The notes below the pieces were generated by a model. The model was not told the DNA's origin. It worked only from the letters and a program-made list of their open reading frames with translations, and searched no databases. Positions 26-19,900 of a stretch of 64,000 bases of DNA are shown piece by piece. The first letter of the stretch is position 1; each line of letters starts with the position of its first letter. Source of the stretch: Micromonospora arida (GTDB taxonomy: Bacteria > Actinomycetota > Actinomycetes > Mycobacteriales > Micromonosporaceae); contig NZ_QGSY01000164.1 of assembly GCF_003857035.1 (NCBI RefSeq), positions 1 through 64,000 of the forward strand. Reading direction: 5' to 3'. The position numbers and the translations under genes were made by a program.

Positions 26-505
26 TTACGCCGTTGGTGCGGGGGTGGGGGTGGGGGCGAAGCCGACGGTGATCACCAGGTCGGCCATCCGGAGGGTCCG
101 CCAGATCGCCGATCCGTCGGCCGGCGCACCCAGGCCGTGGCGCCGCCACCAGGCCGCCACCGACACATCGGCCAACTTGCACCAGCATTCGGCCCGGGTC
201 CAGCGGGCCCAGAAGTCCGCCGTGCCGAACCGGCGGGCCAGCGCCGGGGGCACCGGGGCGTCGGCGCGCTCCGCGTCGACGGCCACCCGCCAGCCGGGCG
301 CCGGTGGGCCGTACCAGCCGACGCACCGTCCATCGTCGAGGTGACTGCGGGTCACCGCGTCGGCCATCGCGGCCGGCGACCCGATGCGCAGATGCTGCTC
401 GGCGGCGACGAGCAGCCCCGGCACCGGACGCGGCACGACCGCCCTGCCGTGCCGTGCTGGTCGCACCGGCAGGGGAACCGGCCGCAGGTCAGATGGCGGC
501 GGCAC
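26..505 (-). CDS. Sfp-like 4'-phosphopantetheinyl transferase
   Basis: A 159-residue protein that I read as a phosphopantetheinyl transferase, which would convert the nearby apo-ACP to its holo form using CoA. The family's metal-binding motif is visible as VAVDAER (D77, E79). A second motif, WTRAECWCK (W102, E106, K110), matches the W-x3-E-A-x3-K signature, and RSH near residue 53 fits the usual SH motif. The length is at the short end for the family. The GTG start lies 17 bases inside the end of the FabG-like gene, so the two are translationally coupled. It is the last gene of a leftward ACP-ligase-reductase set, and that context supports the assignment. Divergence at the motifs leaves room for an inactive homologue. 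Confidence 0.6.
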   Translation of the reverse strand: MPPPSDLRPVPLPVRPARHGRAVVPRPVPGLLVAAEQHLRIGSPAAMADAVTRSHLDDGRCVGWYGPPAPGWRVAVDAERADAPVPPALARRFGTADFWARWTRAECWCKLADVSVAAWWRRHGLGAPADGSAIWRTLRMADLVITVGFAPTPTPAPTA

Positions 506-1244
506 CGTCCACCACGATGACCTGGCCGTTGATGTTGGTGTGCTCCCGCAGCAGCATCCGCACGACCGGTGTGACCTCCACCGGCTCGGTCAGGTGACCG
601 GTCGGGGTGCGGCGCACGATCTGGTCGAGCTGGGTCGGACCGAGCACGGCGGACATCTCCGAGGCGAAGAACCCGGGCGCGACCGAGTTGACCAGCATCC
701 GGCCGCCCAGTTCGCGGGCGAGCGAGCGGGTGGCGGCGTCCATGCCGCCCTTGGTGGCCGAGTACGCGACGAGGCCGGGGAAACCGCGCTGCCCGCAGAT
801 CGAGGTGATGTTGACGATCCGCCCGCGCAGCCCCTTGGCGAGCATCCGGCGGATCACCAGCCGGGTCAGCTGTAGCGGGGCCGTCAGGTTGGTCTCGATG
901 ATCCGGGCGATGTCGCCGGCGGCGGTGTGGGCGTGCAGGGAGTCCTGCCCCATGGCGGCGTTGTTGACGATGCCGTCGATCGGGCCGAGGCGCTGTTCCA
1001 CCTCGCGGACGAAGCTCTGCGCGGCGCGCAGGTCGGTGACGTCCACGGAGCCGACGTGCAGCCGGTCGGGGTGCTCGGCGGCGAGCTTCTCCAACTCCGG
1101 GGTGATGGTGCGGGCGAACGCGGCCACGCGTACGCCCGCGTCGAGCAGGTCGGTGACGATGGCCAGGCCCAGGCCACGGGAACCGCCGGAGACGAGAACC
1201 ACGGAGCTGGGCGGGACGAGCTGGGTGTCGGCTGGCTCAGACAT
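489..1244 (-). CDS. FabG-like short-chain dehydrogenase/reductase
   Basis: A 251-residue classical SDR that should reduce a keto group with NAD(P)H. The cofactor loop SGGSRGLG is at residues 19-26, the NNAA motif at 94-97, and the catalytic S148, Y161 and K165 (YSATK) are present. It ends with a FabG-like C-terminus (NGQVIVVDGA). It overlaps the ligase stop by 8 bases and is itself overlapped by the phosphopantetheinyl transferase, so all four genes from the ACP onward are coupled. With an ACP next door, reduction of a 3-oxoacyl-ACP to 3-hydroxyacyl-ACP is the most natural role. That is inferred from context, because SDR substrates cannot be read from sequence. Confidence 0.8.
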   Translation of the reverse strand: MSEPADTQLVPPSSVVLVSGGSRGLGLAIVTDLLDAGVRVAAFARTITPELEKLAAEHPDRLHVGSVDVTDLRAAQSFVREVEQRLGPIDGIVNNAAMGQDSLHAHTAAGDIARIIETNLTAPLQLTRLVIRRMLAKGLRGRIVNITSICGQRGFPGLVAYSATKGGMDAATRSLARELGGRMLVNSVAPGFFASEMSAVLGPTQLDQIVRRTPTGHLTEPVEVTPVVRMLLREHTNINGQVIVVDGAAAI

Positions 1245-2517
1245 CGCTCTTCAGGGTCTCCTTGACGGGAATGTCGGTCAGGACGCGAATGCGGCGCGGC
1301 ACCGCGTGCTCAGGGAGCCGGTCGGCGCACCAGCGGACCAGCGCGGCCTCGTCCGGCACACCGGTGTCAGCGGCGGACGGGTCGGCAGCGGCGAGGACCA
1401 CCTCGGCGACCACCATCCGCCCGAGCACCGGGGCGCGGCGGCCGGTCACCCGGGCCCAGGCCACCGCCGGATGACCGGTGAGTACGCCGCGGACCACACC
1501 GGCGGAGACTTTGCTGCCACCGACGTTGATCTCGTCCGAGTCCAGTCGGCCGGTGATCAGCACCCGGCCGTCGAGCACCTGCACCCGGTCCCCGGTGCGG
1601 ATCGGGCCGGCGAGACCGGCGCCATGGTACGGGGAGGTGACCACCAGCTCGTCGTCGCGGATCGAGAGCGTCGGCCGGCCAGGGGTGTCCCGGTCCAGCC
1701 AGTCGACCGGGAACCCGGCCCGCCCGTCGTGCACCACAATGGACGCACCCGCCTCGGAGGACGCGTAGATCCAGGAGATCCGGGCGGTCGGGAAGACCTC
1801 CCGCAGCTGGTCCAGGATCGCCTGGTCCACTGGTTCCCCGCCGAGGGTGATCTGGCGCAGCGGCACCCGGGCCAGCGCCTCGGCGTCGCGGTAGAGGGTG
1901 CGCCGCCAGAAGGTCGGAGTGCCGGAGGCCGCGTCCACCCCATGGGTGGCTGCGACCGTGGGCCAGTCGTCCAACTCGTCGGGCTCGACCACCACCAGGT
2001 GCTGGCCGGGCTGGGTCAGCGACAGGGTGACGACCTGCCACCAGGCGTACGTGCCCGGTGCGTACGGGCAGAGCCAGGTCCGCTCAGGCTGGTCGGCCCG
2101 CACCGTGGTCAGCGTGTCGAGGGTGTGCCCGACCCGCTTCGGACGCCCGGTGGACCCCGAGGTCAGCAGCCAGAGCCGGCCGGGCTCGGCGGCTCGCGGC
2201 CGAACCGGTGCGCTCGGGTGGACGCCGTCGTCGTCGAGGACGCCGACGGTGAACCCGGCCGTCAGCAGCTCGGTGCGCATCACCGCGTCGACCCGACTCA
2301 CGGTGCTGAGCAGCAGTTCGGTGCCGTGCGCGGCGTGCTGCCGCGCCGCGGTGAGCGCGTGCACGGCCGAGCGGGCGAGCACCGCCGCCGGGTCGGGCAG
2401 GGTGGGCGTCGGCAGCGAACGCCAGGTCAGCGCGGCGCCACCGACGACGAGCCGGTTGTCGGCACCGGCTGGCTCCGGGCCGGCGGGGGTCAGGTGGCGT
2501 GACGTCGCGACGGTCAC
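1237..2517 (-). CDS. AMP-dependent acyl ligase (ANL family)
   Basis: A 426-residue adenylate-forming enzyme that would activate a carboxylic acid as acyl-AMP and load it on the adjacent ACP. The P-loop LLTSGSTGRPK is at 117-127. The acyl-site motif WIYASSEAG, the RTGD motif and the hinge region ITGRLDSDEINVGG follow, and a C-terminal KETLK supplies the likely catalytic lysine just before the stop. The protein is about 80-100 residues shorter than typical family members at the N-terminus, as in small MenE- or DltA-like ligases, and lacks a long C-terminal extension. The GTG start overlaps the ACP stop as GTGA. Chain length and type of acyl substrate cannot be told from the sequence. Confidence 0.85.
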   Translation of the reverse strand: MTVATSRHLTPAGPEPAGADNRLVVGGAALTWRSLPTPTLPDPAAVLARSAVHALTAARQHAAHGTELLLSTVSRVDAVMRTELLTAGFTVGVLDDDGVHPSAPVRPRAAEPGRLWLLTSGSTGRPKRVGHTLDTLTTVRADQPERTWLCPYAPGTYAWWQVVTLSLTQPGQHLVVVEPDELDDWPTVAATHGVDAASGTPTFWRRTLYRDAEALARVPLRQITLGGEPVDQAILDQLREVFPTARISWIYASSEAGASIVVHDGRAGFPVDWLDRDTPGRPTLSIRDDELVVTSPYHGAGLAGPIRTGDRVQVLDGRVLITGRLDSDEINVGGSKVSAGVVRGVLTGHPAVAWARVTGRRAPVLGRMVVAEVVLAAADPSAADTGVPDEAALVRWCADRLPEHAVPRRIRVLTDIPVKETLKSDV

Positions 2518-2765
2518 TGGTGTTGAAGCTCGACGAGGAAGTCGAGGACGTCCCCGACGGTGGCGATGCGACGCAGCCCGGGGGCGTCGAAGTTGAGCTC
2601 CTCCCCCGTCTCGTCCTCCACCCGCAGGGCCAGCTCGGAGAAGTCGAGCGACCGGAAGCCGATCTCCCGCAACTGCGCCGCGTCGTCCGCGGGCAGCTCC
2701 TTGTCCTGATTCTTCAGCACCTGAGCCATGAGGTCGCGGATCTGCGCGCGACTCAATTCGTTCAT
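2514..2765 (-). CDS. Acyl carrier protein
   Basis: An 83-residue acidic acyl carrier protein. S39 in the FRSLDFSEL motif is the predicted phosphopantetheine site, in the usual helix-2 position (DSLD-like, here RSLD). The start chosen is the ATG at 2765. An upstream in-frame start at 2795 would add ten residues, but it lies upstream of a good -10 box. It is the first gene of the coupled leftward set ACP-ligase-reductase-phosphopantetheinyl transferase. It sits back to back with a GNAT acyltransferase, which suggests that the acyl group it carries is passed to a sugar amine rather than to a fatty acid or polyketide. Confidence 0.9.
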   Translation of the reverse strand: MNELSRAQIRDLMAQVLKNQDKELPADDAAQLREIGFRSLDFSELALRVEDETGEELNFDAPGLRRIATVGDVLDFLVELQHQ

Positions 2766-2772
2766 GCGCCGC

Positions 2773-2778
2773 AGTCTA
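2773..2778 (-). promoter_or_regulatory. -10 box for leaderless ACP operon
   Basis: TAGACT on the minus strand lies 7 bases upstream of the ACP ATG. This is the spacing of actinobacterial leaderless promoters, where transcription begins at the start codon. I see no Shine-Dalgarno sequence before this ATG and no clear -35 box. Confidence 0.45.
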
Positions 2779-2865
2779 CAACCCAACGAATGCATATCTG
2801 ATTTCCCGGTAGGCCCGGGTAAGGTGCCGGAACCCGATGTGAACGGCTAGGAAAGCGAGACGCAG

Positions 2866-3375
2866 GTGCTGCGCGAAGCGACGACGGACGACGTTCATCT
2901 GATGTTGTCCTGGCGTAATCAGGAAACCAATCGGCAGGTCAGCAAGACCAGTCACGAGATCACCGCCGAGGAGCACGCCCGGTGGTGGTCGGCGGTCCGC
3001 GGCGACCCGTCGCGGCGAGTGCTGGTGTACGTCCGCGACGACCGGCCCTGCGGTGTGGTCACCTTCTTCGACCTGCGATTGGACGGCCCCCGTACCGGGG
3101 CGTGGGGCTTCTATCTCGACGCCGACGGGCTGGACGGGCGGGGCGAGACACTGCCGGCCTGGCTGGGGGTCATGCGGGAGGCCGTCGAGTACGCCTTCGA
3201 CGGGCTGCACCTGGACCGACTCGATGGGGAGGTGCTCGGCCACAATACCGTCGTACGACAGATGAACCGGCGTTTCCGATTCGTCGAGGGAACCCCGCGA
3301 CAGGAGCTGTCCGATGGCCGGGAAATCACCGTCATCCCGATTTCCCTGGCTCGGGCAGACCGCCGCCAACGCTGA
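2866..3375 (+). CDS. PseH-like GNAT sugar N-acyltransferase
   Basis: A 169-residue GNAT-fold acyltransferase. Near the N-terminus it has the SWRNQE motif (WRN) that is typical of PseH-type enzymes. A central beta-strand block (CGVVTFFDL) follows, and a C-terminal part ends in MNRRFRFVEG, the family's usual 'N..a...Y.k.GF' region. PseH N-acetylates C4 of the UDP-4-amino-6-deoxy sugar made by PseB and PseC. Here the acyl donor may come from the divergent ACP operon instead of, or as well as, acetyl-CoA; that is inference. The GTG start has AGGAAAG about 10 bases upstream. The gene is separated from pseB by a convergent membrane glycosyltransferase gene. Confidence 0.75.
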   Translation: MLREATTDDVHLMLSWRNQETNRQVSKTSHEITAEEHARWWSAVRGDPSRRVLVYVRDDRPCGVVTFFDLRLDGPRTGAWGFYLDADGLDGRGETLPAWLGVMREAVEYAFDGLHLDRLDGEVLGHNTVVRQMNRRFRFVEGTPRQELSDGREITVIPISLARADRRQR

Positions 3376-3427
3376 TTGCCGGACCCTTTTCCGCGATGGA
3401 CAGGAAGCATTAATCGGCCGTGCTCCC

Positions 3428-3464
3428 GGTGGACATCCGCCGTTCACGAATAGCGGAGTCCACC
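3428..3464. terminator. Bidirectional hairpin between convergent genes
   Basis: GGTGGACATCCGC pairs with GCGGAGTCCACC, with one bulged A and a loop of about 12 bases. It sits between the convergent GNAT and glycosyltransferase genes and has no T-tract, as is usual in actinomycetes. Confidence 0.55.
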
Positions 3465-3477
3465 GAAGCGCGGTGGG

Positions 3478-5214
3478 TCAGGCCCGCCGCCAGGCGGCCC
3501 AGTGCTGCTCCGGGTTGCCGCCGAGTCGGACGAAGCCGTACGCCGCGCCGTCCCAGTCGTCGACCTGCCCCGGTGCCCAGCGGGCGAACACGACCTGCGC
3601 CGCGGCCGGCGGCTGCCTGTCGCCGAACCACCGGACGTCGGCCCAGGTCACCTGGTGGCTGAGGTTGAACCGGAGGGTGTAGTGCACGTCGGTCGACGCC
3701 CACACCCGCTCGCCGGGGCGTACGCCGACGTCGGCCACCCGGGGCGTCGGCGCGGTGCTCGCGGCGGTCGGTAGCACGATTCGTTGGTCGATCACGTGCA
3801 TCGTGACGAGGTTGACCACCACGACGGCGCCGAGGACGGGCAGCCGCAGGCGGGGCACCCGGACCGTGGCGACGAGCAGCACGCAGCCGGCGATGCCGAC
3901 CAGCGACCCGACCACCGGTCTCAGCTCCCGCCAGCCCTCGGTCAACGCCGCCAGGTCCGGTGCGCTGAACCCGCCGTAGCGCAACCGGTGGCCCTGGCTG
4001 GCCACGTACGCGAGTCGGGCCGCGACCAGCGCGCCGCCACCGATCAGCAGCGCCACCGCGACCGCCGCCCGGCGCAGCACCACCCGCCAGCCGGCGGTGA
4101 ACAGCACCCCCAGCCCGACCAGCAGCCAGAGCGGCGCCAGCATCTGCACGTAGCGGCCGTAGATCGCGTCCAGCGGCTTGCCGGTGATGCCGGACAGGAT
4201 CACCGACGCGCCGCCGGCCACCCCGACGGTCACCACCAGCGCCACGCCCATCGTCCAGCGGGCCGCGTCGCCGTGCCGTGGGCGCCACAGCTCGCGCACC
4301 GCGCCGGCCCAGGCCACCCCGGCCATTCCGAACGTGATCACCACGAGGTACCAGAGCTGGGTGGTGACCGCGGCGCTCACCCGGACCATCCCCTGGGCGG
4401 AGGTGACCGCCTCGAACGTGCCGCCGCCGGGGGTGCTGCCGAGCAGGTAGACCTTGCCGCCGAGGTAGCGGATGGCGGCCTCGTTGACGAGCGCCATGGC
4501 GAGCACCGGCAGCATCGCCGCGAGCACCACAGGCGGGCTGATTCGGCGGCGGACGAACAGCAGCAGCACCAGCCCGGCGTGCACGGCCACGATCACCAGA
4601 CCGCGGGAGTGCAGCAGGTGGAACCCGCCGACCAGCAGGCCCACGGTGGCGGCGGCGAGCGGGCCGGGCCGGGTGATCCAGCGGTGCACGGCGAGCAGCC
4701 AGGCGACGACAAGCGGCGCCATCACCGCGTCGATCATGGCGATGCCCGCGTAGAAGGCGGTGGCCGGCAGGGTCGCCGCCGCGACCGCGGCGAGCAGCGC
4801 GTACGAGCGGCGCAGCTGGAACAGGCGGCGACCGAACAGGTACGCCAGCGGCAGCAGCGTCGAATTCACCATCGCGTTGATCAGCTGGACGATCCGGTAG
4901 CTGTCGGTGAAGTCCCGGTCCCCGAGGAACGCCGGCGAGATCAGCATCGGGTAGCCGACCCGGCGCAGCAGGTCGTTCTCGCTGCTGAAGCCCCCCGGGC
5001 CGCCGGCCAACGCGCGGGCGGTGTTCAGGTAACTGTCCTCGTCGGTGTGCGCGATGGGCAGCACGATGTGCCGGGACCACCACATCCGCCAGGCCACGCT
5101 GAGCACCCAGCCGACGACCAGCAGCAGCGGCACCAGCCAACGTCGGGCGGCGGGGCCACTCGGTGTCTCGGCCACCACCACCGGCCGTTCGATCACGTCA
5201 CTACCGGGTGCCAT
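3478..5214 (-). CDS. Integral-membrane glycosyltransferase (GT-C/PMT-like)
   Basis: A 578-residue, very hydrophobic protein with roughly 11-13 membrane segments, starting near residue 27. In the first outside loop it has an acidic motif, AHTDEDSYLNTA, with adjacent D/E residues as in GT39/GT83-type GT-C enzymes, which take sugars from polyprenyl-phosphate carriers. A soluble C-terminal part of about 120 residues follows the last helix. The ATG is preceded by GGAGG. The gene points away from pseB and is embedded in the nonulosonate cluster, so it may decorate the wall glycopolymer that carries the sugar. Donor and acceptor are unknown. Confidence 0.7.
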   Translation of the reverse strand: MAPGSDVIERPVVVAETPSGPAARRWLVPLLLVVGWVLSVAWRMWWSRHIVLPIAHTDEDSYLNTARALAGGPGGFSSENDLLRRVGYPMLISPAFLGDRDFTDSYRIVQLINAMVNSTLLPLAYLFGRRLFQLRRSYALLAAVAAATLPATAFYAGIAMIDAVMAPLVVAWLLAVHRWITRPGPLAAATVGLLVGGFHLLHSRGLVIVAVHAGLVLLLFVRRRISPPVVLAAMLPVLAMALVNEAAIRYLGGKVYLLGSTPGGGTFEAVTSAQGMVRVSAAVTTQLWYLVVITFGMAGVAWAGAVRELWRPRHGDAARWTMGVALVVTVGVAGGASVILSGITGKPLDAIYGRYVQMLAPLWLLVGLGVLFTAGWRVVLRRAAVAVALLIGGGALVAARLAYVASQGHRLRYGGFSAPDLAALTEGWRELRPVVGSLVGIAGCVLLVATVRVPRLRLPVLGAVVVVNLVTMHVIDQRIVLPTAASTAPTPRVADVGVRPGERVWASTDVHYTLRFNLSHQVTWADVRWFGDRQPPAAAQVVFARWAPGQVDDWDGAAYGFVRLGGNPEQHWAAWRRA

Positions 5215-5578
5215 GAACGCCTCCAGAATTGCCGGCCGGACCGGCCCGCGCTGATCCGACAGGCCCGTCGACCGGCGTCGGTGACGCCCGGGGATGGCCC
5301 GCTCGCACGAGCCGGTGTGGATGTCGGGTGAACGTGGGACCCGGCTGCGCGCCGGGCCGCCGGGTCGTTCGCGCGGTCACTGTAGCGGCCCGATCCGGCC
5401 AGGTCAGCCCACATTCGGGGCGGTCGGAAGTGTTCGCCTACGCGGTGTTCGGCATTCACGGGAGCAGAGGTTGTGGTTCACCCGCGAGCGCCGGGGAGTT
5501 AACCCGCCATGGCTAGCGTGTCACCCCGGTCGGCCGGCCCAGGGCGGCTCGTTCATCCACGAACACGGGAGCACCACA
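5215..5578. other. Divergent intergenic region
   Basis: This 364-base stretch lies between the leftward glycosyltransferase and the rightward pse operon. It holds a good minus-strand promoter (5379-5407). On the plus strand there is a lone TAGCGT (5514-5519), about 60 bases before pseB, without a convincing -35 box. I see no gene in it. Confidence 0.5.
5379..5407 (-). promoter_or_regulatory. Promoter for membrane glycosyltransferase gene
   Basis: On the minus strand a CTGACC -35 box (5402-5407) is separated by exactly 17 bases from a TACAGT -10 box (5379-5384). Transcription would start near 5372 and give a leader of about 155 bases. Confidence 0.5.
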
Positions 5579-6562
5579 TTGAGTGAGTTGAATGGATCGT
5601 CCATTCTGATCACCGGGGGAACTGGTTCCTTCGGCAGGACGTTCCTCCGGCACATCCTCAACGAGGCCGACCCCGCCCGCGTGGTGGTGTTCTCCCGCGA
5701 CGAGCTCAAGCAGTACGAGCTGCGCCAGCAACTCGGCGACGACCCGCGGCTGCGCTGGTTCATCGGCGACATCCGGGACCGGCACCGCCTCACCCGGGCC
5801 ATGCACGGCGTCGACCACGTGGTGCACGCCGCCGCGCTGAAGCAGGTGGACACCGCGGAATACAACCCCTCGGAGTACATCGCCACCAACATCACCGGCT
5901 CGCAGCACGTCGTCGACGCGGCGATCGAGGCCGGCGTCAGGAAGGTCATCGCGCTCTCCACCGACAAGGCGTCCAGCCCGATCAACCTGTACGGCGCGAC
6001 GAAGCTGGTCGGCGACAAGCTGTTCGTCTCGGCCAACCACTACGCCGCCCAGCACCCCACCCGGTTCGCCGTGGTGCGCTACGGCAACGTGGTGGGCAGC
6101 CGCGGCTCGGTGGTCCCGCTGTTCCGCCGGCTGGCCGCCGAGGGCAAGAGCCTGCCGATCACCGACAAGCGGATGACCCGCTTCTGGATCACCCTGGACC
6201 AGGCCGTGCAGTTCGTCATGGACTCGTTCGACCAGATGCAGGGCGGCGAACTGTTCGTGCCGCGTATCCCGAGCATGCGCATCCTCGACCTGGTCGAGGC
6301 CGTGGCCCCGGACGCCACCACCCACGAGGTCGGAATCCGGCCGGGCGAAAAGCTGCACGAGGAGATGATCGCGCCCGACGACAGCCGGCGGACGCTGCGC
6401 GCCGACGGCCGGTTCATCGTCCAGCCCACCATCGCCACCTGGGGCTACCAGCCGCCGGCCGACTGCGACCCGGTGCCGGACGGCTTCGCCTACCAGTCCG
6501 ACACCAACGACGAGTGGCTCACCGTCGAGCAGTTGCGCGACATGCTCGGCATCAACGGATGA
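5579..6562 (+). CDS. pseB: UDP-GlcNAc 4,6-dehydratase, inverting (PseB)
   Basis: A 327-residue extended SDR. It catalyses the first step of pseudaminic acid synthesis: UDP-GlcNAc is oxidised, dehydrated and C5-inverted to the UDP-4-keto-6-deoxy-AltNAc sugar. The Rossmann loop TGGTGSFG is at 12-19. FSRDELKQYE and the catalytic block STDKASSPINLYGATK match PseB. The start chosen is the TTG at 5579, with GGGAG seven bases upstream and the length typical for PseB. The open frame extends further up to 5294, but that part has no family resemblance. The stop overlaps the pseC start as ATGA. Confidence 0.92.
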   Translation: MSELNGSSILITGGTGSFGRTFLRHILNEADPARVVVFSRDELKQYELRQQLGDDPRLRWFIGDIRDRHRLTRAMHGVDHVVHAAALKQVDTAEYNPSEYIATNITGSQHVVDAAIEAGVRKVIALSTDKASSPINLYGATKLVGDKLFVSANHYAAQHPTRFAVVRYGNVVGSRGSVVPLFRRLAAEGKSLPITDKRMTRFWITLDQAVQFVMDSFDQMQGGELFVPRIPSMRILDLVEAVAPDATTHEVGIRPGEKLHEEMIAPDDSRRTLRADGRFIVQPTIATWGYQPPADCDPVPDGFAYQSDTNDEWLTVEQLRDMLGING

Positions 6563-7716
6563 CGGGGATGCTCCCGTACGGCCGGCAGTCGATCAGCGAG
6601 GACGACATCGCGGCCGTCGCCGACGTGCTGCGCGGCGACTGGCTCACCACCGGTCCGCAGGTCGACGCCTTCGAGGCCGACCTCGCCCGGTGGACCGGCG
6701 GAGTCGGTGTCGCCGCCGTCTCCAACGGCACCGCGGCGCTGCACGTGGCGTACGCGGCGGCCGGGGTGGGGCCGGGCGACGAGGTGGTCGTTTCGCCGAT
6801 GACCTTCGTGGCGACCGCCAGCAGCGCAGTCGCCCTCGGCGCGAAGATCGTCTTTGCCGATGTCGACGACGAGACGTTCTGCCTCGACCCGGCGGCGGCC
6901 GCCGCCGCGGTCACCTCGCGGACGGCTGTCGTCGCCGCTGTCGACTATGCCGGCCACCCCGCCGACTACGACGCGCTGCGCAAGTCGGTCGACGGCAGCG
7001 ACGCGCTGCTGCTCGCCGACGCGGCGCACTCGATCGGCGGGACGTACCGAGGTCGGCCGGTCGGTTCGCTCGCCGACCTGACCACGTTCTCGTTCTTCCC
7101 CACGAAGAACCTGACCACCGCCGAGGGTGGCGCCGTCGCGGCGCTGGACCCGGAGATCCTGAAGCGGGCCCGCCGGTTCCGCGGCGTCGGCGTGGTCCGC
7201 GACCGCGACGACCTGCGTTTCCCGGACGAGGGCGGCTGGCACCAGGAGGTGCACGAGTTCGGGCTGAACTACCGACTGCCGGACGTGCTCTGTGCCCTGG
7301 GCCGCAGCCAACTGCGTCGGCTCGGCGCGTTCACCGCCCGCCGCAGCGCCCTGGTCGCCCGCTACGACGAGGCGCTGGCCGACCTGGACGGCGTGCTGCC
7401 GCCCAACCGCAGGTCGTGGGCCGACCCGGCCTGGCACCTCTACCCGATCCGGGTGCTCGACGGGCGTCGCCGCGAGGTGTACGACCGGATGCGCGCCGCC
7501 GGCATCGGCGTCCAGGTCAACTACGTCCCGGTGCACTGGCACCCGGCCTTCGCCGACCTGGGCTACCGGCGCGGGTCCTGCCCGGTGGCCGAGTCGTTCT
7601 ACTCCCAGCAGCTGTCGCTGCCGCTGTACCCGGGGCTCAGCGACGCCGACCAGGACCGCGTCATCGACGCGCTGACCGCCGCGGTGCGGGGCAGCTCGGT
7701 GCGTTCCGCCGCCTGA
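6559..7716 (+). CDS. pseC: PLP-dependent aminotransferase (PseC)
   Basis: A 385-residue DegT/DnrJ/EryC1-family sugar aminotransferase. It transfers an amino group from glutamate to C4 of the keto sugar made by PseB. The PLP-binding lysine is in FFPTKNLTTAEGG, the sugar-nucleotide start LPYGRQSISEDD matches PseC, and the ADAAHSIGG block holds the cofactor-contacting aspartate. The ATG at 6559 overlaps the pseB stop, which fixes the start. Its product would be the substrate for the PseH-like GNAT at 2.9 kb. A related sugar aminotransferase could look alike, but pairing with pseB makes PseC the best reading. Confidence 0.9.
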   Translation: MTGMLPYGRQSISEDDIAAVADVLRGDWLTTGPQVDAFEADLARWTGGVGVAAVSNGTAALHVAYAAAGVGPGDEVVVSPMTFVATASSAVALGAKIVFADVDDETFCLDPAAAAAAVTSRTAVVAAVDYAGHPADYDALRKSVDGSDALLLADAAHSIGGTYRGRPVGSLADLTTFSFFPTKNLTTAEGGAVAALDPEILKRARRFRGVGVVRDRDDLRFPDEGGWHQEVHEFGLNYRLPDVLCALGRSQLRRLGAFTARRSALVARYDEALADLDGVLPPNRRSWADPAWHLYPIRVLDGRRREVYDRMRAAGIGVQVNYVPVHWHPAFADLGYRRGSCPVAESFYSQQLSLPLYPGLSDADQDRVIDALTAAVRGSSVRSAA

Positions 7717-7726
7717 TGGGAACCTG

Positions 7727-8575
7727 ATGCACCACGCCAACCACTTCTACGGCCACGCCCACGTGCTGGCCCGCTACGCGGGCCTCGGCGACCGGCACCC
7801 ACCCCGGATCAGCGGGTACGTGCAGCACGGCTGGAACATCGGTGACGGCCTGGCCCCCGGCCACCCGTACGCCGACCGCACCCCCAGCCTGCTCTGGTCG
7901 GAGCAGACCCGCCGTCGGGCCTGGTCGGTGGGGCGACGCAACGTGGTCGTCATCGGCGCGCCGTTCGTCTACCTGCAGGCTCTGCGCCCCGACGAACCAC
8001 CGGCCGAGGAGCGGGAGGGCACCATCTGGTACCCGTTCCACGGCTGGGAGGGACAACACGTCAAGGGCGACCACCGCAAACTGATCGCCCTCATCCAGGA
8101 CACCGAGCCCGGCCCGGTCACGGTCTGCCTCTACTGGCACGAGTACCGGATGCGCAACGTGCGCCGGCTCTACGAGCGCGCCGGGTTCCGGGTGATCTGC
8201 CACGGCTACCGGGGACACTGGTGGAAGGACACCGACCCCGAGTTCCTCGACCGGCAGCTCACCGAGCTGCGCCGTCACCGCCGAGTGGCGTCCAACCGGC
8301 TGACCAGCGCGATCTTCTACGGCATCGCGGCGGGGTGCGAGCCCGCGGTCTACGGCGACCCGATGATCCTGTCCAACGAGGACCCGACCTTCGGCGGCAC
8401 CGCCCGGATCCGACGGCAGTGGCCGCAGCTGCACGGCACCAGTGTCGACCTGCCCACCGCGGTCGAGATCGCCCGCGCCGAGCTGGGCACCGACCACCGC
8501 TGCACGCCGGCCGAGCTCCGCGAGCTGCTCGGTTGGGCGCACCTCCAGGAGGAAGAGGAAGACCGTGACGACTGA
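7727..8575 (+). CDS. Putative GT-B-like surface-sugar transferase
   Basis: A 282-residue soluble protein without a confident family match. The N-terminal half holds YVQHGWN, then SEQTRR and VVVIGAPFVYL. The C-terminal half holds CLYWHEY, VICHGYRGH and a block RVASNRLTSAIFYGIAAG followed by VYGDP. This alternation resembles GT-B transferases of the polysialyl/Kdo type, where the last block would bind the CMP- or nucleotide-sugar. It starts 10 bases after pseC, and its stop overlaps the next gene by 11 bases, so it belongs to the operon. I infer that it attaches the finished nonulosonic acid to a carrier, but this is untested. Confidence 0.5.
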   Translation: MHHANHFYGHAHVLARYAGLGDRHPPRISGYVQHGWNIGDGLAPGHPYADRTPSLLWSEQTRRRAWSVGRRNVVVIGAPFVYLQALRPDEPPAEEREGTIWYPFHGWEGQHVKGDHRKLIALIQDTEPGPVTVCLYWHEYRMRNVRRLYERAGFRVICHGYRGHWWKDTDPEFLDRQLTELRRHRRVASNRLTSAIFYGIAAGCEPAVYGDPMILSNEDPTFGGTARIRRQWPQLHGTSVDLPTAVEIARAELGTDHRCTPAELRELLGWAHLQEEEEDRDD

Positions 8576-10391
8576 GACGGCACCCGCCGACCGGATCACC
8601 CTGCCGGGCGGCGAGATGCTGGCCTGGTCGGACCTGCCGCAGGAACGGCTGGCCAACGGTGGGCCGCTCGCCGCGCTGGCCGCCCGGTTGGTGCCGCCCG
8701 GCGCCCGCGTCCTGGTGGCCGGTCCACACGACCCGGCGCTGCTCGACCAGCTCACCCACGCCGAGGTGACCTGCCTGCTGCGCAGCCACCCGGACGCGGT
8801 GGCGCTGGCGCACCGGGCCGCCCGGGTGGTGGTGGGTGGCCCGGCCGGGCTGCCCGACGACGAGACGTACGACGTGGTGATCGCCGCTGCCGGGCTGGAC
8901 CCGGTGGAGTCGGTGGAGGGCACCCGGCTCGGCTGGGACGGTGTGCTGGCACGACTCGTCGCCGCGGTGCGACCGGGTGGCGCGTTGCTGCTGCGCCTGG
9001 ACAACCCCCTGGGCCTGCACCGGCTGGTCGACACCACCCCCTGGTACGCCCGCCGCGACAACTCCGCCTGGGTGATCGGCGGCGTGCTGGACCGGGCCCA
9101 CCCGGCCAACCGGGACCAACTGCGCGAGCGGCTCGACGCTGCGGGGCTGCGGCCGGCCGCGTGCTGGGCCGCGTACCCCGGTGTCAGCACCCCGACGGCG
9201 CTGCTGGACGCCGACCACCTCGACCGGGACGAGGGCTCCGGCCTGTTCGACGCGGTGCTGCACGGCGCCTGCGCCGGAGGTTTCACCAGCGCCATGGTGC
9301 TCCAGGACCCGGCCCGGCTCGCGGTGGACGCGCTGCACGCCGGGCGCGCCGCCGACCTCGCACCGGGCTGGTTGACGCTCGCCCACCGGCCCGCCGACCC
9401 CACGGACCCGACCACGCCGGCCGTCGAGGCGGACCTGCCGGTGGCCCTCGTGCAGACCGGTAGCCCCGGGATCGGCGTGCTGGAGGTGCTGCAGGGCCCC
9501 TCCGGTCGGCGCTGGGGGCTCATCCCGGCCACCGAAGCGACGACGCCGGCCGTCGCGCCGTTCGCCAGCCGCGAGGCCGCGTACCGGGACGCCGACGCGC
9601 TGTCCGGACCGGTGCCGTCCGGCCGGCTGCTGCGTACCCTGCTGCTCGACGCGGCCCTGCGCCGCGACCTGGCCACCCTGCGCGCGCTGCTGCGCGGGTA
9701 CGCGGGCTGGCTCGCCGACCAGGCCGACGCCGACGGCCGGATCGCCGGCGCGGCGGCGCTGGCCGCCACCGACAACGTGGTGGTCGACGGCGAGCGGTAC
9801 GCGGTGCTCGACCCCAGCTGGCGGGCCACCGCCGCGCTGCCCGCCGACGTGGTGCTCGCCCGCGGGCTGTGGCGCTTCGCCGCGGGCCTGCTCACCGGCG
9901 GGTACGCCCACCCGTGGTCGTCCACTCTCGACGTCGCGGGCCTGACCGTGGTGCTCGGCGGACTCGCCGGTCACGACCTCGACCGCGCGACCGTCAGCGA
10001 CGCGGTCGAGGCCGAGGCGGCCATCGCCGCAGCACTGCACGGGCTGGACGCCGACGGCAGGGTCGGCCTCGCCACCGAGCTGCACGCCGTCGCGCCGACC
10101 GACCCGCCGGTGGGCGGGCACAGCTACCAGCAGCTACGCGAGGCGTGGCTGCGCCAGCGCGAGGAACTCACCCGGTTGGCGGCGCTGACCGCGTGGACCG
10201 AGGAGTTGCTCACCTCGCGGGAACGGGCGCTGCGCCGGGCCGAGACGACGATCGGCCTGCTCAGCGGGTCGCTCAGCTACCGGGTGGGTCGGCTCGCCAT
10301 CACCCCGGCCCGGCTGGCCAAGCGGGGTGCCCGCGCCGCCAAACGTCGGGCCACCGCGGTGCTGGCCTCCAAGCAGGCGGAGCAGCAGTGA
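8565..10391 (+). CDS. Methyltransferase-like protein with coiled-coil tail
   Basis: A 608-residue protein. Residues about 20-260 look like a worn class I SAM-dependent methyltransferase: PPGARVLVAGP at the glycine-loop position, YDVVIAAAGLD at motif IV and VRPGGALLLRLDNP at motif VI. The middle is unrecognised. The end is charged and helical (QLREAWLRQREELTRL), followed by a basic SLSYRVGRLAITP tail of the kind often seen on wall-polysaccharide glycosyltransferases. The GTG at 8565 has GGAGGAAGAGG upstream and overlaps the preceding stop. It could modify or scaffold the surface sugar. The substrate is unknown, and the altered glycine loop leaves catalysis in doubt. Confidence 0.55.
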   Translation: MTTETAPADRITLPGGEMLAWSDLPQERLANGGPLAALAARLVPPGARVLVAGPHDPALLDQLTHAEVTCLLRSHPDAVALAHRAARVVVGGPAGLPDDETYDVVIAAAGLDPVESVEGTRLGWDGVLARLVAAVRPGGALLLRLDNPLGLHRLVDTTPWYARRDNSAWVIGGVLDRAHPANRDQLRERLDAAGLRPAACWAAYPGVSTPTALLDADHLDRDEGSGLFDAVLHGACAGGFTSAMVLQDPARLAVDALHAGRAADLAPGWLTLAHRPADPTDPTTPAVEADLPVALVQTGSPGIGVLEVLQGPSGRRWGLIPATEATTPAVAPFASREAAYRDADALSGPVPSGRLLRTLLLDAALRRDLATLRALLRGYAGWLADQADADGRIAGAAALAATDNVVVDGERYAVLDPSWRATAALPADVVLARGLWRFAAGLLTGGYAHPWSSTLDVAGLTVVLGGLAGHDLDRATVSDAVEAEAAIAAALHGLDADGRVGLATELHAVAPTDPPVGGHSYQQLREAWLRQREELTRLAALTAWTEELLTSRERALRRAETTIGLLSGSLSYRVGRLAITPARLAKRGARAAKRRATAVLASKQAEQQ

Positions 10392-11161
10392 CCGGCGTAC
10401 CGGTGCCCGGGGTCCCCGCGGACGACGCGGGGCCACGGATCGTCGGCATCGTGCAGGCGCGGATGGGTTCGTCCCGGCTGCCCGGCAAGGTGCTCCGCCC
10501 GCTCGCCGGACGCTCCGTGCTGGGCCGGGTCGTACGCGCCGCCTCCGACAGCGGCGTCCTGGCCGACCTGGTGGTCGCCACCAGCACCGACGCGGTCGAC
10601 GACGCGGTGGCCGCCGAGTGCGCGCGGCTCGACGTGCCGTGCCACCGCGGGCCGGTCGACGACGTGCTGGACCGGTTCGTGGGCGCCCTCGCGGCGCACC
10701 CGGGCGACGCCGTCATGCGGTTCACCGCCGACTGCCCCCTGCTCGACCCGGAGATCATCACCCTGGTCGCGTCGGTGTACCGGGCGGTCCCCGGGCTGGA
10801 CTACGCCAGCACGTCGATCGCCCGGACCCTGCCCCGGGGGCTGGACGTCGAGATCATCCGAGCGGAGACGCTGCGCACCCTGGGCCGGCTCGCCACCGAC
10901 CACCACCGGGTGCACGTGACCTCGTACGCGTACACCCATCCGGAGCTGTTCCGGGTGCTCGGGGTGACGCTCACCCCGGACCGCTCCGCGCTGCGGCTCA
11001 CCCTCGACACCGAGCAGGACTGGACGCTGGTCAGCGCGATCATCGACCACTTCGGTGACGTCAGCGTGCCGCTGGCCAAGCTCGCCGACTGGCTCGACGG
11101 TCAGCCCCGGCTGCGGGCGCTCAACGCCGACGTACGACAGAAGCACCTGGAGGAGTCCTGA
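10388..11161 (+). CDS. pseF: Cytidylyltransferase, PseF/SpsF type
   Basis: A 257-residue nucleotidyltransferase. It should activate the finished nonulosonic acid as its CMP derivative. The signature VQARMGSSRLPGKVL lies at about residues 21-35, the RFTADCPLLDPE metal-binding region follows, and a late LTLDTEQDW block is typical of SpsF/PseF-like proteins. The GTG start overlaps the previous stop as GTGA. It is followed by pseG, an order also seen in sps/pse clusters. Choosing between PseF and a legionaminate-type enzyme is not possible from sequence, but PseB and PseG in the same operon favour pseudaminate. Confidence 0.8.
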   Translation: MTGVPVPGVPADDAGPRIVGIVQARMGSSRLPGKVLRPLAGRSVLGRVVRAASDSGVLADLVVATSTDAVDDAVAAECARLDVPCHRGPVDDVLDRFVGALAAHPGDAVMRFTADCPLLDPEIITLVASVYRAVPGLDYASTSIARTLPRGLDVEIIRAETLRTLGRLATDHHRVHVTSYAYTHPELFRVLGVTLTPDRSALRLTLDTEQDWTLVSAIIDHFGDVSVPLAKLADWLDGQPRLRALNADVRQKHLEES

Positions 11162-12372
11162 GCACCCCGAGGGTCGGGTTGCGCTGCGACGCCGGGCCAC
11201 GGCGCGGCGTCGGCCACCTCGTCCGCTGCCTGGCGCTCGCCGAGGAGTTCCTCGCGCGGGGCGCCGACGTCACCGTGTTCGGCACCGTCGAACGGCTCGA
11301 CTGGGCAACCGCTGAGCTGGCCGCGCGGGGCATCCCGCTGCTCCCCGGCCCGGACTCGGCTGCCGAACTGGTCGAGGTGGCCCGCCGACACCACCTGGAC
11401 GTGTTCGTCCTCGACTCCTACGAACTGGACCCGGCCGGAGCCGGCGCCCTGCGCGCCGCCGGCGTCTACACCCTCGCCATCATCGACGGCGACAGCCGGG
11501 GCCAGGTCGCGGACCTCTACCTCGACCAGAACTTCGGAGCGGAGCTGCCGGCGCTGGGGTCAGGTTTCGGGGCGGACCTGCCGGCGCTGAGGTCCGGGCC
11601 GGACCGGCCGGGGCTGAGGTCCGCGCCGGAGCTGCCAGGGCTGGAGTCGGGGCCGGAGCTGCCAGGGCTGGAGTCCGGGCCGGAGCTGGGGTCGGGTCTT
11701 GGGGCGGAGCTGCCCGGCCGGCTTCTCGCCGGGAGCGGGTACGCGCTGCTGCGCGACACCGTGATCAACGCCCGGCCACCGGTCGCCCCGCCTGCCACGG
11801 CGGTCAGCCGCCCCCGGGTGCTGGCCTTCTTCGGCGGCACCGACGCGGTCGGCGCGGCGCCGCTCCTGACCCGGGTGCTGGTGGCCACCGGTCATCCGAT
11901 GGACCTCACGGTCATCGTCGGGCGACCCGAGATCGAGGCGGAGGTCGACGATGTCGCCCCCGGTCGGGGGCAGACCATCCGACCGGTCCCGCCCACCACC
12001 TCGCTGCCGGCACTGATCACCGAAGCGGACCTGGTGGTCAGCGCCGCCGGCACGTCCACCTGGGAACTCTGCTGCCTCGGCGCACCCGGCGCACTTGTCT
12101 GCGTGGTCGACAACCAACGTGAGTCGTACACCCGGGTGGTGCGGCACGGCCTGGCCGCCGGCCTCGGCGAGCTGCCGGAGCTGACCGCCGGTGGCGTCGC
12201 CGGACGAGCCGCCCGCGCGACGGCGGCACGGACCCTGCACGGGCTGCTCAGCTCGCCGCAGCGGCGCGCGACGCTGGCCGCGCGCGCCTGGTCCACCGTC
12301 GACGGGCAGGGCCGGGCACGGGTGGTGGACGCGGTGTTCGACGCCGTACGCGCCGCCACCGTCCCCGGCTGA
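11158..12372 (+). CDS. pseG: UDP-sugar hydrolase PseG with repeat insertion
   Basis: A GT-B-fold hydrolase of about 404 residues that removes UDP from the bis-acylated amino sugar in pseudaminate synthesis. The N-terminal RCDAGPRRGVGHLVRCLAL holds the conserved G-x-GH-x2-RC motif. The second domain has VLAFFGGTDAVG and VSAAGTSTWELCCLG, both typical of PseG/SpsG. The start is uncertain: a CTG at 11158 overlaps the pseF stop and has GGAGGAG just upstream, while the TTG at 11179 would cut away the first beta strand. Between the two domains sits a low-complexity tandem repeat of about 55 residues (see 11539-11718) that ordinary PseG proteins lack. It is the last gene of the operon. Confidence 0.82.
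   Translation: MSTPRVGLRCDAGPRRGVGHLVRCLALAEEFLARGADVTVFGTVERLDWATAELAARGIPLLPGPDSAAELVEVARRHHLDVFVLDSYELDPAGAGALRAAGVYTLAIIDGDSRGQVADLYLDQNFGAELPALGSGFGADLPALRSGPDRPGLRSAPELPGLESGPELPGLESGPELGSGLGAELPGRLLAGSGYALLRDTVINARPPVAPPATAVSRPRVLAFFGGTDAVGAAPLLTRVLVATGHPMDLTVIVGRPEIEAEVDDVAPGRGQTIRPVPPTTSLPALITEADLVVSAAGTSTWELCCLGAPGALVCVVDNQRESYTRVVRHGLAAGLGELPELTAGGVAGRAARATAARTLHGLLSSPQRRATLAARAWSTVDGQGRARVVDAVFDAVRAATVPG
11539..11718 (+). repeat. 27-base tandem repeat inside pseG
   Basis: At least five in-frame units of about 27 bases encode nine-residue steps: AELPALGSG, ADLPALRSG, PDRPGLRSA, PELPGLESG, PELPGLESG, then degenerate pieces. The two central units are nearly identical in DNA. The array lies in the inter-domain loop after LDQNFG and before LLAGSGYALLRD. 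Its length being a multiple of three suggests slipped-strand expansion that was tolerated in a surface loop. Confidence 0.85.
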
Positions 12373-12529: not shown

Positions 12530-13165
12530 ATGACGCAGGCCGCCTACCAGCCGTCGATGCTCGACCTGGCCGACGCCGGGCCGACCCTGGGGCCGCTGCC
12601 CGGCCAGATCCGCCGGCACCAGCTCAGCCGGGGCGCCTGGGTCGACCACCTCCCCGGCTGGGTGCGCGGCTCCGACACGGTCCTCGACGCCCTGCTCACC
12701 GAGGTGCCCTGGCGTGCCGAACGGCGCACCATGTATGACGCCGAGGTCGACGTGCCCCGACTGCTCTGCTGGTACGACGGCGCGAGGCAGCTCCCCCACC
12801 CCGTGCTCACCGCCGCGCGGGCCGCGCTCACCGCGCACTACGCGCCCGAGTTGGGCGAGCCCTTCGTCACCGCCGGCATGTGCCTCTACCGGTCCGGGCG
12901 CGACAGCGTGGCCTGGCACGGCGACACCATCGGCCGATCGGCGCACACCGACACGATCGTCGCGATCGTGTCGTTCGGTGCACCGCGACCGCTGCTGCTG
13001 CGCCCACGCGGCGGCGGCGAGAGCCTGCGCTTCCCGGTGGGCCACGGTGACCTGATCGTGATGGGCGGCTCCTGCCAACGCACCTGGGAGCACGCCATCC
13101 CCAAGACCACCCGCCCCGTGGGCCCTCGGGTGAGCGTCCAGTTCCGCCCCCACAACGTCGCCTGA
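12530..13165 (+). CDS. AlkB-like Fe(II)/2-oxoglutarate dioxygenase
   Basis: A 211-residue AlkB-family protein. AlkB enzymes oxidatively remove methyl groups from damaged bases such as 1-methyladenine and 3-methylcytosine. The iron ligands appear as WHGD (H130, D132) and WEHAIPK (H188), and the 2-oxoglutarate arginines as RVSVQFR (R200, R206). The length fits bacterial AlkB. The ATG probably begins a leaderless mRNA. The gene is convergent with the SARP regulator and unrelated to the sugar operon upstream. The motif is WHGD rather than the WHSDDE of many homologues, so substrate preference may differ. Confidence 0.88.
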   Translation: MTQAAYQPSMLDLADAGPTLGPLPGQIRRHQLSRGAWVDHLPGWVRGSDTVLDALLTEVPWRAERRTMYDAEVDVPRLLCWYDGARQLPHPVLTAARAALTAHYAPELGEPFVTAGMCLYRSGRDSVAWHGDTIGRSAHTDTIVAIVSFGAPRPLLLRPRGGGESLRFPVGHGDLIVMGGSCQRTWEHAIPKTTRPVGPRVSVQFRPHNVA

Positions 13166-16938: not shown

Positions 16939-19900
16939 TCAGTCGCGTTCGATCAGGTGGCCTACCACCGTCGGGCCGAGCATCACCGCGAAGCCGCTGC
17001 CGTCGCGGCGTGGGTCCGCGGCGGGCAGTTCCACCGGGTCGCCGGTGGCGGACGCTCCGACCGGTCGCGGGCCCACCCAGGCGACGGCCACGTCCGTCTC
17101 ACCCTTGAGGAAGCGGTGCGCGCGCACGCCGCCGGTCGCCCGGCCCTTCGCCGGGTACGCCTTGAACGGCGTCACCTTGACCGTCGCTCCGGTGGAGGTG
17201 ACCACCATCGGCTCGCCATGCCCCGGGTCGTCGGTGCGTACCGCGCCGAAGAACGCGACCCGCGCCCGGGCCGGCAGGTTGATGCCGGCCATACCGCCGC
17301 CCTTGAGGCCCTGCGGCCGGACCAACCCTGCGGGGAAGCGCAACAGCGACGCCTCCGAGGTGACGAAGGTCAGCGTTTCGGTGCCGTCGGTCAGCCAGGT
17401 CGCCCCGACCACCTCGTCACCGTCGCGCAGACCGATCACCTCGAACTCGTCGGAGCGCACCGGCCACTCCGGCGAGCAGATCTTCACCGCGCCCTGCCGG
17501 GTGCCCAATGCGAGCCCTGGTGAGCCCTCCGCCTGCCCGCCCAGCGGGGCCAGGCCGACGACGGTCTCCCCCGCCGCCAACGGCACCAGCTCGGCCGCGG
17601 ACATACCGCCACGCAGTGACACGGTGCCCGCCTGCTCGGGCAGCACCGGCAGCGGCAGAACGTCGACCTTGAACGCCCGACCGGCGCTGGTCAACAGCAG
17701 CACCCGACCGCGGGCGGTGGAGTGCGCGATGGCGCGTACCGTGTCGTGCTTGACCCGGCCGTTGCGTCGGCGCCCCTCGGAGCTCTCCTCCGACTCGGCA
17801 GCGGTCCGGGCGACCAGCCCGGTCGCGGAGAGGATCACCTGGCACGGGTCGTCGGCGACCTCCAGCGGGCCGGCCGGCGCGGACGCGGCCAGCACCTCCT
17901 TCAGGTCACCGTCGACAAGCGTCGTACGACGTTCGGTGCTGAACTGCTTGACCACGGCCGCCAGCTCGTCGGAGACCACCTTCCGGAGCACACGCTCGTC
18001 GTCGAGGATCTTGCTCAGCTCGGCGATCTCGGAACGCAGCCGCTCCTGCTCGGCCTCCAGCTCGATCCGGTCGAACTTGGTCAGCCGGCGCAACGGAGTG
18101 TCCAGGATGTACGTGGCCTGGATGTCGGAGAGGCCGAACCGGCTCATCAGCCCGTCCTTCGCGGCCTGCGCGTCGTCGCTGCCCCGGATCAGCCGGACCA
18201 CCTCGTCGATGTCCAGCAGCGCGATCAGCAGACCGTCGACCAGGTGCAACCGCTCCTGACGCTTGCGCCGACGGTACGAGGTGCGCCGGGTGACCACCTC
18301 GTACCGGTGGGCCAGGAAGACCTCCAGCAGCGCCTTGAGGCCCAGCGTGCGCGGCTGCCCGTCGACCAGGACCAGGTTGTTGACGCCGAACGACTGCTCC
18401 AACGGGGTCAGCCGGTAGAGGTCGGCGAGCAGCGCCTGCGGGTTGACCCCGACCTTGCACTCGACGACGAGCCGCGTGCCGCTCTCCCGGTCGGTGAGGT
18501 CCTTGACGTCGGCGATGCCGGTGAGCCGCTTGGTCTTGGTGACCTCGTTGGTGATCGCGGCGATGACCTTCTCCGCGCCGACACCATAGGGCAGCTCGAC
18601 CACGGTGATCGCCTGTCGGCCCCGGCTGCCCTCGATCGGTCCGATCTCCACCTTGCCGCGCATCCGCACCACGCCACGCCCGGTCTCGTACGCCCGGCGC
18701 ACCTCGTCCAGGCCGAGCAGCACCCCACCCGTGGGCAGGTCGGGGCCGGGGACGAACTCCATGAGCTTGTCCAGAGTGGCGTCCGGGTGGTTGATCAACC
18801 AGCGGGCCGCGGAGACGACCTCCGCCAGGTTGTGCGGGATCATGTTGGTGGCCATTCCGACCGCGATCCCGGACGCGCCGTTGACCAGCAGGTTGGGGAA
18901 GGCCGCCGGCAGCACGGTCGGCTGGGTCAGCGACCCGTCGTAGTTGGGCTCGACGTCGACGGTGTCCTCGCCCAGCTCACCGACGAGCAGCATGGCCTCG
19001 CGGGACATCCGCGCTTCGGTGTAACGCGAGGCGGCCGGGCCGTCGTCGGGGCTGCCGAAGTTGCCGTGCCCGTCGATGAGCGGCACGTTGAGGGAGAAGT
19101 CCTGGGCGAGGCGGACCATGGCGTCGTAGATCGCCGTGTCGCCGTGTGGATGGTACTTACCCATGCAGTTGTGAACGACATAACCCTCGGCGACGAACGC
19201 GTGCTCATCACTGCCGACCTGGATGTCGTACGTGACGTCGGGCGAAACCGCCTCAACCGAAGTGACCCGCAGGAACGAACTGCCGACCAACGCGTCGAGC
19301 CGAGCAGCGAGCGGTGAGCCAAGGCGGCGGAGTTTCTGGATCCAGCCGTCTCGTACCGCTCGCTCCAACTGGAACGACCGGTCCGCGAGCGGGACGCCAT
19401 TGCGGTCCTTGCCGTACCGCACCTTCGGGCCACCGCTCGCCGAGAGCGAGTCACGGAACGCCTGCCCGTCCTGGTCCCGGAACCACCCGCCGCCCTGATG
19501 CGCTGCCGTGAACTCCGCGATGACCGGACCGTAGGGCAACCGGTCGTTGCCCTGCTTGCCGCTGTACTCGTAGCCGATCTCGGCGACTCGCTGCAAGCCG
19601 TCGTGCTTGTATCCGATCCGCACCCAGGGCAACAACAACCGAGCAAGGTCTGCGGCGTCCCGACCGCTGACCGAAAGACCAAAGAGCGGGTTACCCGCGG
19701 AGGCGCGACCGCTGGTCCAGTGGTGCCCGTGCAGCCCCAGGTCGGCAAGCATGGCGTAGATCTGCCGCACCAGCACCTCGCTCGTGCTGACGAAGACGAT
19801 CTCTCTGAAGCGCTTACGGACGTAGCCGTCACCGTCAAAGAAGCCGGCGAGGAACGGCGCCCACGCCGACCGGTCCCGGATGACGTCGTCGGGCACGTGC

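Follow-up and report, generated by a model that had tools for sequence, protein, structure and literature searches.

A PseH-like acyltransferase gene and its acyl carrier protein cassette in a pseudaminic-acid cluster of Micromonospora arida

The carrier-protein operon and the acyltransferase gene

The window analysed here, 64,000 nucleotides of contig NZ_QGSY01000164.1 of the soil bacterium Micromonospora arida, opens with a cluster for pseudaminic acid (pse), a sugar of the cell surface that resembles sialic acid, in which an operon for an acyl carrier protein (ACP) and three accompanying proteins stands back to back with a gene for a PseH-like GNAT. On the minus strand, the ACP gene (2514..2795; PF00550, E 5.2e-6) is followed by the genes of a short acyl-AMP ligase of 426 amino acids (aa) (1237..2517; PF00501, E 7.6e-18, and PF13193), of a FabG-like short-chain dehydrogenase/reductase (SDR) of 251 aa (489..1244; PF00106, E 3.9e-45, and PF13561) and, at the end of the operon, of a 159-aa protein resembling phosphopantetheinyl transferases (PPTases; 26..505), the successive frames overlapping by 4, 8 and 17 nt. 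The GNAT gene (2866..3375, plus strand, 169 aa) is divergent from the operon and separated from the ACP gene by 70 bp; a leftward frame at 2776-3447 was also considered for the GNAT and was rejected, as it has no family match. The acyl-AMP ligase gene set is real and lies where the initial annotation had placed it, and matches to all the genes named there, namely those of the ACP, the ligase, the FabG-like SDR, the PPTase-like protein, the GNAT and pseB, pseC, pseF and pseG, were recovered.

The ligase, 97% identical to that of M. saelicesensis, carries the motif TSGSTGRPK and the C-terminal motif VKETLKSDV, both invariant in an alignment of 17 sequences, and the PP-binding domain of the ACP carries GFRSLD with an invariant Ser49 (16 sequences), the preceding residue being Arg. 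For the reductase, the curated FabG equivalog TIGR01830 is the best model, with 166.7 bits against a cut-off of 297.75, so that judged by its sequence the protein is a FabG-like SDR only. PPTases have the motif D-x-E ... W-x-x-x-E-x-x-x-K, which the 159-aa protein contains with D77, E79, W102, E106 and K110 invariant among 44 aligned sequences, while Ala stands instead of Lys before the motif Glu. This protein matches no Pfam or NCBIfam model, the Pfam ACPS domain included, and its profile gave no result against solved structures; against 12 proteins from PF01648 loci, which were chosen by the same motif and not independently, the profile scored 36.5, compared with at most 17.6 in 60 column shuffles.

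The sole NCBIfam match of the GNAT is the PseH model TIGR03585 (E 5.8e-22), at 78.4 bits below the curated cut-off of 93.1, and we therefore call the protein PseH-like on the evidence of this profile. Its closest solved relative by sequence is also a PseH, 4xpk (E 1.6e-7), which we take to be the enzyme of C. jejuni; another solved PseH, 4ri1, is the H. pylori enzyme, and PseH of this species uses acetyl-CoA (PMC4363471). In an alignment with the solved PseHs, the window GNAT differs by seven extra residues after the FYLD strand. Its fold resembles that of solved PseH in a structure comparison, but spermidine acetyltransferases score equally, so the fold tells little beyond membership of the GNATs; a Foldseek search with the GNAT model returned no result.

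Rightward from the acyltransferase, on the plus strand, lie the genes of PseB (5294..6562; TIGR03589, 494 bits, above the cut-off of 408), PseC (6514..7716; TIGR03588 best, 398.7 bits, cut-off 423.5; PF01041), a PseF-like cytidylyltransferase (about 10385..11161; PF02348, E 2.6e-25 on a longer frame; PseF model 28.8 bits, cut-off 205.7) and a PseG-like UDP-sugar hydrolase (11179..12372; TIGR03590 best, 122.8 bits, cut-off 153.6). The PseB match begins only at residue 99 of its frame, and the true pseB start is therefore probably near 5590. The remaining gene, pseI, lies outside the window because the assembly breaks there: the window begins at a contig end (G000:C279), the pseI match of the genome stops about 150 nt short of the end of contig C77, and the C77 end and the window start map consecutively onto the complete relative G185, where pseI directly follows the PPTase-like gene. 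Thus the full set of pseB, pseC, pseH, pseG, pseI and pseF is present, with several members below their model cut-offs.

Two cassettes and their exchange together with the GNAT

The distribution of the gene set was followed in 20 relatives chosen for having the ligase and in 80 named loci, the best 80 of 153 confirmed matches of the ligase alignment. All 20 relatives have matches to the SDR, ligase, ACP, GNAT and pseB, pseF and pseG. Of the 80 named loci, 74 contain the ACP and the GNAT along with the ligase, which shows that the arrangement is not due to chance, and pseI is found in 69; with an overlap filter the GNAT is counted in 73. Four of the six loci lacking the GNAT and eight of the 11 lacking pseI have less than 4.4 kb of flank on the expected side, while L141 and L145 are without GNAT and pseI, and L143 without pseI, despite full flanks. 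The SDR is counted in all 80, the match in L141 being remote (28% identity, 6 kb off). In 55 of the 74 loci the ACP and GNAT genes are divergent neighbours as in the window; in the other 19, namely 18 from Kribbella and one labelled Streptomyces (SID13031), a distance of 4.2-6.6 kb lies between them.

A second cassette, ACP-SDR-ligase-LuxE-LuxC (L206:8252-12911, L190, L192), occurs in further pse clusters of the family and is here called type B as opposed to the type A of the window; its members are recognised by Pfam in G080, with the ACP just below the cut-off. We surveyed 200 genomes of the family, evenly drawn from a larger group, with thresholds of E<=1e-20 for the type-A ligase, 1e-60 for pseI, 1e-15 for LuxC and 1e-20 for the GNAT profile, and obtained 25, 66, 56 and 78 genomes, respectively. 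The ligase and LuxC never occur in the same genome, and the 66 pseI genomes divide into 25 with the ligase and 41 with LuxC, none having both and none neither; these genomes are related, and Fisher's p was not used as evidence. Hence all 25 ligase genomes have pseI, which bears out the assignment of the set to the pse pathway. One marker is present in 76 of the 78 GNAT genomes, and the GNAT in 76 of the 81 marker genomes. The genome of the window itself shows no LuxC match at E 1e-15, and so no LuxE/LuxC cassette. When 20 of the 41 type-B genomes were examined around pseI, all five cassette genes were found in six (G179, G001, G006, G028, G080, G084), a part in five and none in nine, in which LuxC lies farther away or on another contig.

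This perfect partition holds within the family sample, not beyond. In a class sample of 296 genomes (ligase E<=1e-60), 16 have pseI, of which five carry the ligase, one LuxC and ten neither marker; eight of these ten have a pseI only 39-52% identical, the near ones being G317 (82% complete) and G412. For G219, in the same sample, the ligase was found on a contig of 5.9 kb but no match to pseI. As a separate observation, in the cassette-less pse cluster of G353 (L230:11459-12247) a protein that looks formyltransferase-like by eye replaces the GNAT between pseC and pseI.

The genus Micromonospora has both cassette types, and this makes it possible to compare the same genes within and between types. 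Between types, identities are 85-86% for pseI, 92% for pseB, 82-87% for pseC, 89-93% for pseF and 70-74% for pseG, against 90-91, 89-95, 83-85, 88-89 and 71-77% within type A. For the GNAT, identity is 77-79% between type-A members but only 44-46% across types, and when type-A members from Micromonospora and Hamadaea (G061) are compared it is 62-64%, although pseI is then at 70-71%. In a second genus, g39, the pair G061 and G080 has pseI at 80%, pseB at 92% and the GNAT at 48%, although pseF (63%) and a conserved 282-aa protein of the cluster (71%) are also scarcely closer there than between genera.

In several pairs from distant genera, GNATs of one type share only 49-52% identity, and therefore trees are required. 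Each tree holds 54 rows (20 type-A regions, 15 or 14 named loci, and 19 or 20 type-B regions, one organism being included twice). The GNAT tree has a single split by cassette type, with support 100/100 and in all 200 bootstrap trees, and no mixed GNAT-cassette pair exists among its rows; the pseI tree requires four type changes (bootstrap range 4-4). Constraint tests reject type-A pseI as a single clade (p 2.6e-6), the Micromonospora GNATs as a single clade (p 5e-4) and the g39 GNAT pair (p 3e-61). Moreover, in the type-B genomes G138 and G179 the GNAT sits between a GT2 gene (79-80%) and an unreplaced pseI (85%), so that pseI separates it from the nearest cassette gene, and in G138 LuxC is 23 kb away. 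Taken as sequence comparison, these identities and trees show the cassette set being exchanged across genomes together with the enzyme predicted to attach the acyl group: GNAT and cassette behave as a unit that is swapped as a whole, with the greater part of the pathway left in place. The absence of a strict CoA-loop motif was considered as a mark of the cassette-associated GNATs and rejected; the motif is present in two of four cassette-less GNATs and missing from the fragments of both solved PseHs, and four of 35 type-A GNATs match the pattern, but upstream of the loop.

Proposed acyl supply to the sugar and competing explanations

The amino nitrogen at position 4 of the UDP-sugar ends up as N-7 of pseudaminic acid. 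It is this amine that PseH acylates, the H. pylori enzyme with acetyl-CoA (PMC4363471), and pseudaminic acids vary in their N-acyl groups, N-7 glyceroyl and N-hydroxybutyryl being known (PMC6388019). As the GNAT changes with its ACP cassette, it most simply takes the acyl group made there, and we consider it on balance probable, from the comparison of genomes, that the window holds a pseudaminic-acid cluster in which the GNAT is committed to an acyl group made on a carrier protein of its own. The GNAT is probably matched to its cassette and fed by it, and it is probably the cassette set that determines the acyl group of the sugar. In such a route the PPTase-like protein or a general PPTase would arm the ACP, the ligase would load a short acid, for which a 3-oxo acid such as acetoacetate is favoured, the SDR would convert it into a 3-hydroxyacyl-ACP, and the GNAT would transfer the acyl group to the 4-amine of UDP-4-amino-4,6-dideoxy-AltNAc; our best guess for this group is 3-hydroxybutyryl. 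The finished sugar would enter a wall polymer or a glycoprotein. In G185 an IspD-SDR fusion, a CDP-glycerol glycerophosphotransferase-like protein and ABC transporter parts are encoded 6-13 kb beyond pseI, and these predicted functions point to a wall polymer as the destination.

Two observations weigh against this reading. In G412 (L228/L229), pseI and a type-B-like GNAT are found with neither LuxC nor type-A ligase, which may be an exception or a third cassette. The PPTase-like gene, moreover, is present in 17 of the 20 ligase-bearing relatives and in 58 of the 80 named loci by tblastn or 55 by profile, and the profile does not find it in 18 of 21 Kribbella loci. Of the own PPTase that the initial annotation gave to the set, motif and profile thus uphold a PPTase-like gene in the window, not a general component.

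The alternative that survives best, and which we regard as a real possibility, leaves the use of the ACP by the GNAT untouched and concerns the group: the ligase would load malonate, lactate or pyruvate, glycerate or a dihydroxy acid, on which the reductase would act. Among solved proteins, the ligase profile best matches a malonyl-CoA ligase, for the C-terminal part only, a ketoacyl synthase III lies beside a related gene trio of Azospirillum (see below), and the glyceroyl and hydroxybutyryl groups just mentioned are both on record. In A. piscicola AH-3, with an island that includes ACP, reductase and ligase genes as well as luxE and luxC, there is a pseudaminic-acid derivative of 376.14 Da (PMC7874193); by our calculation Pse5Ac7Ac is 316.127, its sum with C2H4O2 376.148 and a plain 3-hydroxybutyryl version 360.153, so the observed mass would fit a dihydroxybutyryl replacing acetyl, which we take as a lead only. 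Against this lead, A. hydrophila AH-1, which has a small island, has a glycan of 403 Da, and odd masses thus arise without the cassette too; for a FabG-like reductase a 3-oxo substrate is the simplest fit.

It is unlikely, by comparison, that the GNAT is an ordinary PseH using acetyl-CoA and that the cassette adds another group, O-acyl or lipid-like, to the same sugar or polymer. Such a 'liposugar' reading has been published for Aeromonas and enterobacterial islands, the characterised PseH does use acetyl-CoA, and the sequence rules out no other acyl recipient. However, it leaves unexplained why the GNAT alone of the nine genes compared in the Micromonospora pairs changes with the cassette, and no second acyltransferase was recognised in the operon. 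Even less probable is that the GNAT receives a 3-hydroxyacyl group made by the cassette in the form of a CoA thioester, like FdhC (5ktc), an amino-sugar 3-hydroxybutanoyltransferase of GNAT fold solved with CoA and a 3-hydroxybutanoylamino sugar; here a dedicated ACP would be superfluous, and no ACP-to-CoA transfer enzyme was recognised in the operon. FdhC acts on a different sugar than that of the window pathway, and the shared fold demonstrates no function. That GNAT and cassette merely travel together as neighbours, without a shared substrate, is very doubtful: the divergent pairs of the 55 type-A loci and of five type-B regions described below would suit it, but the GNATs tested from the 19 loci with a distant ACP are still type A, pseI intervenes in G138 and G179, and the 54 GNAT rows contain no mixed pair.

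The feeding of the GNAT by its cassette has partial counterparts in known systems. Dedicated transferases pass an ACP-bound acyl group to an amine in butirosin (BtrI/BtrJ/BtrH) and mycobactin (MbtL/MbtK) biosynthesis, MbtK being a GNAT; unlike that of the window, these are not nonulosonate pathways. The Azospirillum brasilense Sp7 flagellin locus on plasmid p3 (L153) likewise brings together a GNAT, pseI and an ACP-ligase-SDR trio (ligase 40%, SDR 46% and pseI 57% identical to those of the window genome), but differs in its extra ketoacyl synthase III, a GNAT only 23% identical and no match to the PPTase-like protein. Downstream of pseH, the group II islands of Aeromonas (98 strains) have genes for an ACP, a 3-oxoacyl-ACP reductase and an AMP-dependent synthetase, which were interpreted as fatty-acid or liposugar genes (PMC7874193), and in enterobacterial flagellin islands similar genes beside flagellin-glycan genes were read as fatty-acid synthesis (PMC4875605). 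The Aeromonas islands, known here by description only, share with the window the presence of ACP, reductase and ligase alongside PseH in a pse cluster, and their gene list is that of the type-B cassette of Actinobacteria; the window differs in a genome without LuxC, a PPTase-like gene and another type of ligase and GNAT. The initial annotation had expected a new variation in nonulosonate synthesis, which in view of the Aeromonas and enterobacterial reports is too strong. The novelty is limited, while the comparative case for the GNAT-cassette pairing, built on genome sequences, is clear.

A search of the open literature, with most subscription journals outside it, yielded no paper in which PseH is proposed to be fed by an ACP, none joining pseudaminic acid, acyl carrier protein and hydroxybutyryl, none joining viosamine, acyl carrier protein and flagellin, only the Aeromonas paper for nonulosonic acid with acyl carrier protein, and nothing on the wall chemistry of Kribbella or Micromonospora. 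We know of no account of how genomes encode the choice of N-acyl group in pseudaminic acid. Should the cassette feed the GNAT, a genome would suffice to predict the acyl group, the 'fatty acid' genes in flagellin islands would be given a definite function, and the GNATs that use acyl-ACP would gain a PseH-like member.

Cassettes beyond the pse clusters and neighbouring genes

In the family sample, 15 LuxC genomes have no pseI match at E<=1e-60. Seven of them were examined, and five (G064, G081, G019, G106 and G122; L244/L245, L246/L247, L248, L250/L251 and L252/L253) show the type-B GNAT and ACP as divergent neighbours, in four cases with a nearby aminotransferase 31-33% identical to PseC; G040 and G073 have a type-B cassette and a PseC-like aminotransferase, with no GNAT within the stretch. 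These pseI-less GNAT regions perhaps concern a different acylated amino sugar. More remotely, an ACP-ligase-SDR trio stands beside an annotated 'acyltransferase' on two Rhodobacterales plasmids, and at L291:10884-13056, in the same genus as the window, a 40% identical ligase with ACP and SDR lies in a natural-product-like cluster. The concern that the set might be found mostly with unrelated pathways is not borne out for this ligase at close identity, although remoter trios do occur elsewhere. As a tentative generalisation, which could well be right, ACP feeding of the sugar N-acyltransferase would be the rule for the pseudaminic acids of Micromonosporaceae and many other actinomycetes, with two different, interchangeable cassettes, each paired to a GNAT class of its own, and with the type-B pair as a portable module for acylating amino sugars that also serves where no pseI is recognised; if so, the N-7 acyl group could be read in the genome from the type of cassette.

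Three further genes belong to the cluster. Between the GNAT and pseB, a membrane protein on the minus strand (3478..5214), weakly PMT-like and possibly a glycosyltransferase (PF13231, E 3.2e-4, below cut-off), occurs in all 16 same-genus regions and in 35 of the 80 named loci. The 282-aa protein (7727..8575, plus strand) has no Pfam match at E 0.05 and gave only noise in further family searches, yet it is among the best-conserved genes of both cluster types (in Micromonospora 86-90% between types and 87-89% within type A) and is a possible candidate for the CMP-Pse transferase. The following protein of about 608 aa (8442..10391, plus strand), likewise present in both types, has no Pfam match, nor has the copy of a relative; by eye it may be methyltransferase-like.

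Beyond pseG, an AlkB-like 2OG-Fe(II) oxygenase gene (12530-13165) is found in 15 of 16 Micromonospora regions, the 16th being cut. Farther on, the GyrA frame of 1262 aa (16939-20727) has Hint and LAGLIDADG matches, that is, an intein in gyrA; many relatives align with it over about 755 residues only, while the alignment extends to all 1262 for G168 and to more than 900 for both G162 and G144.

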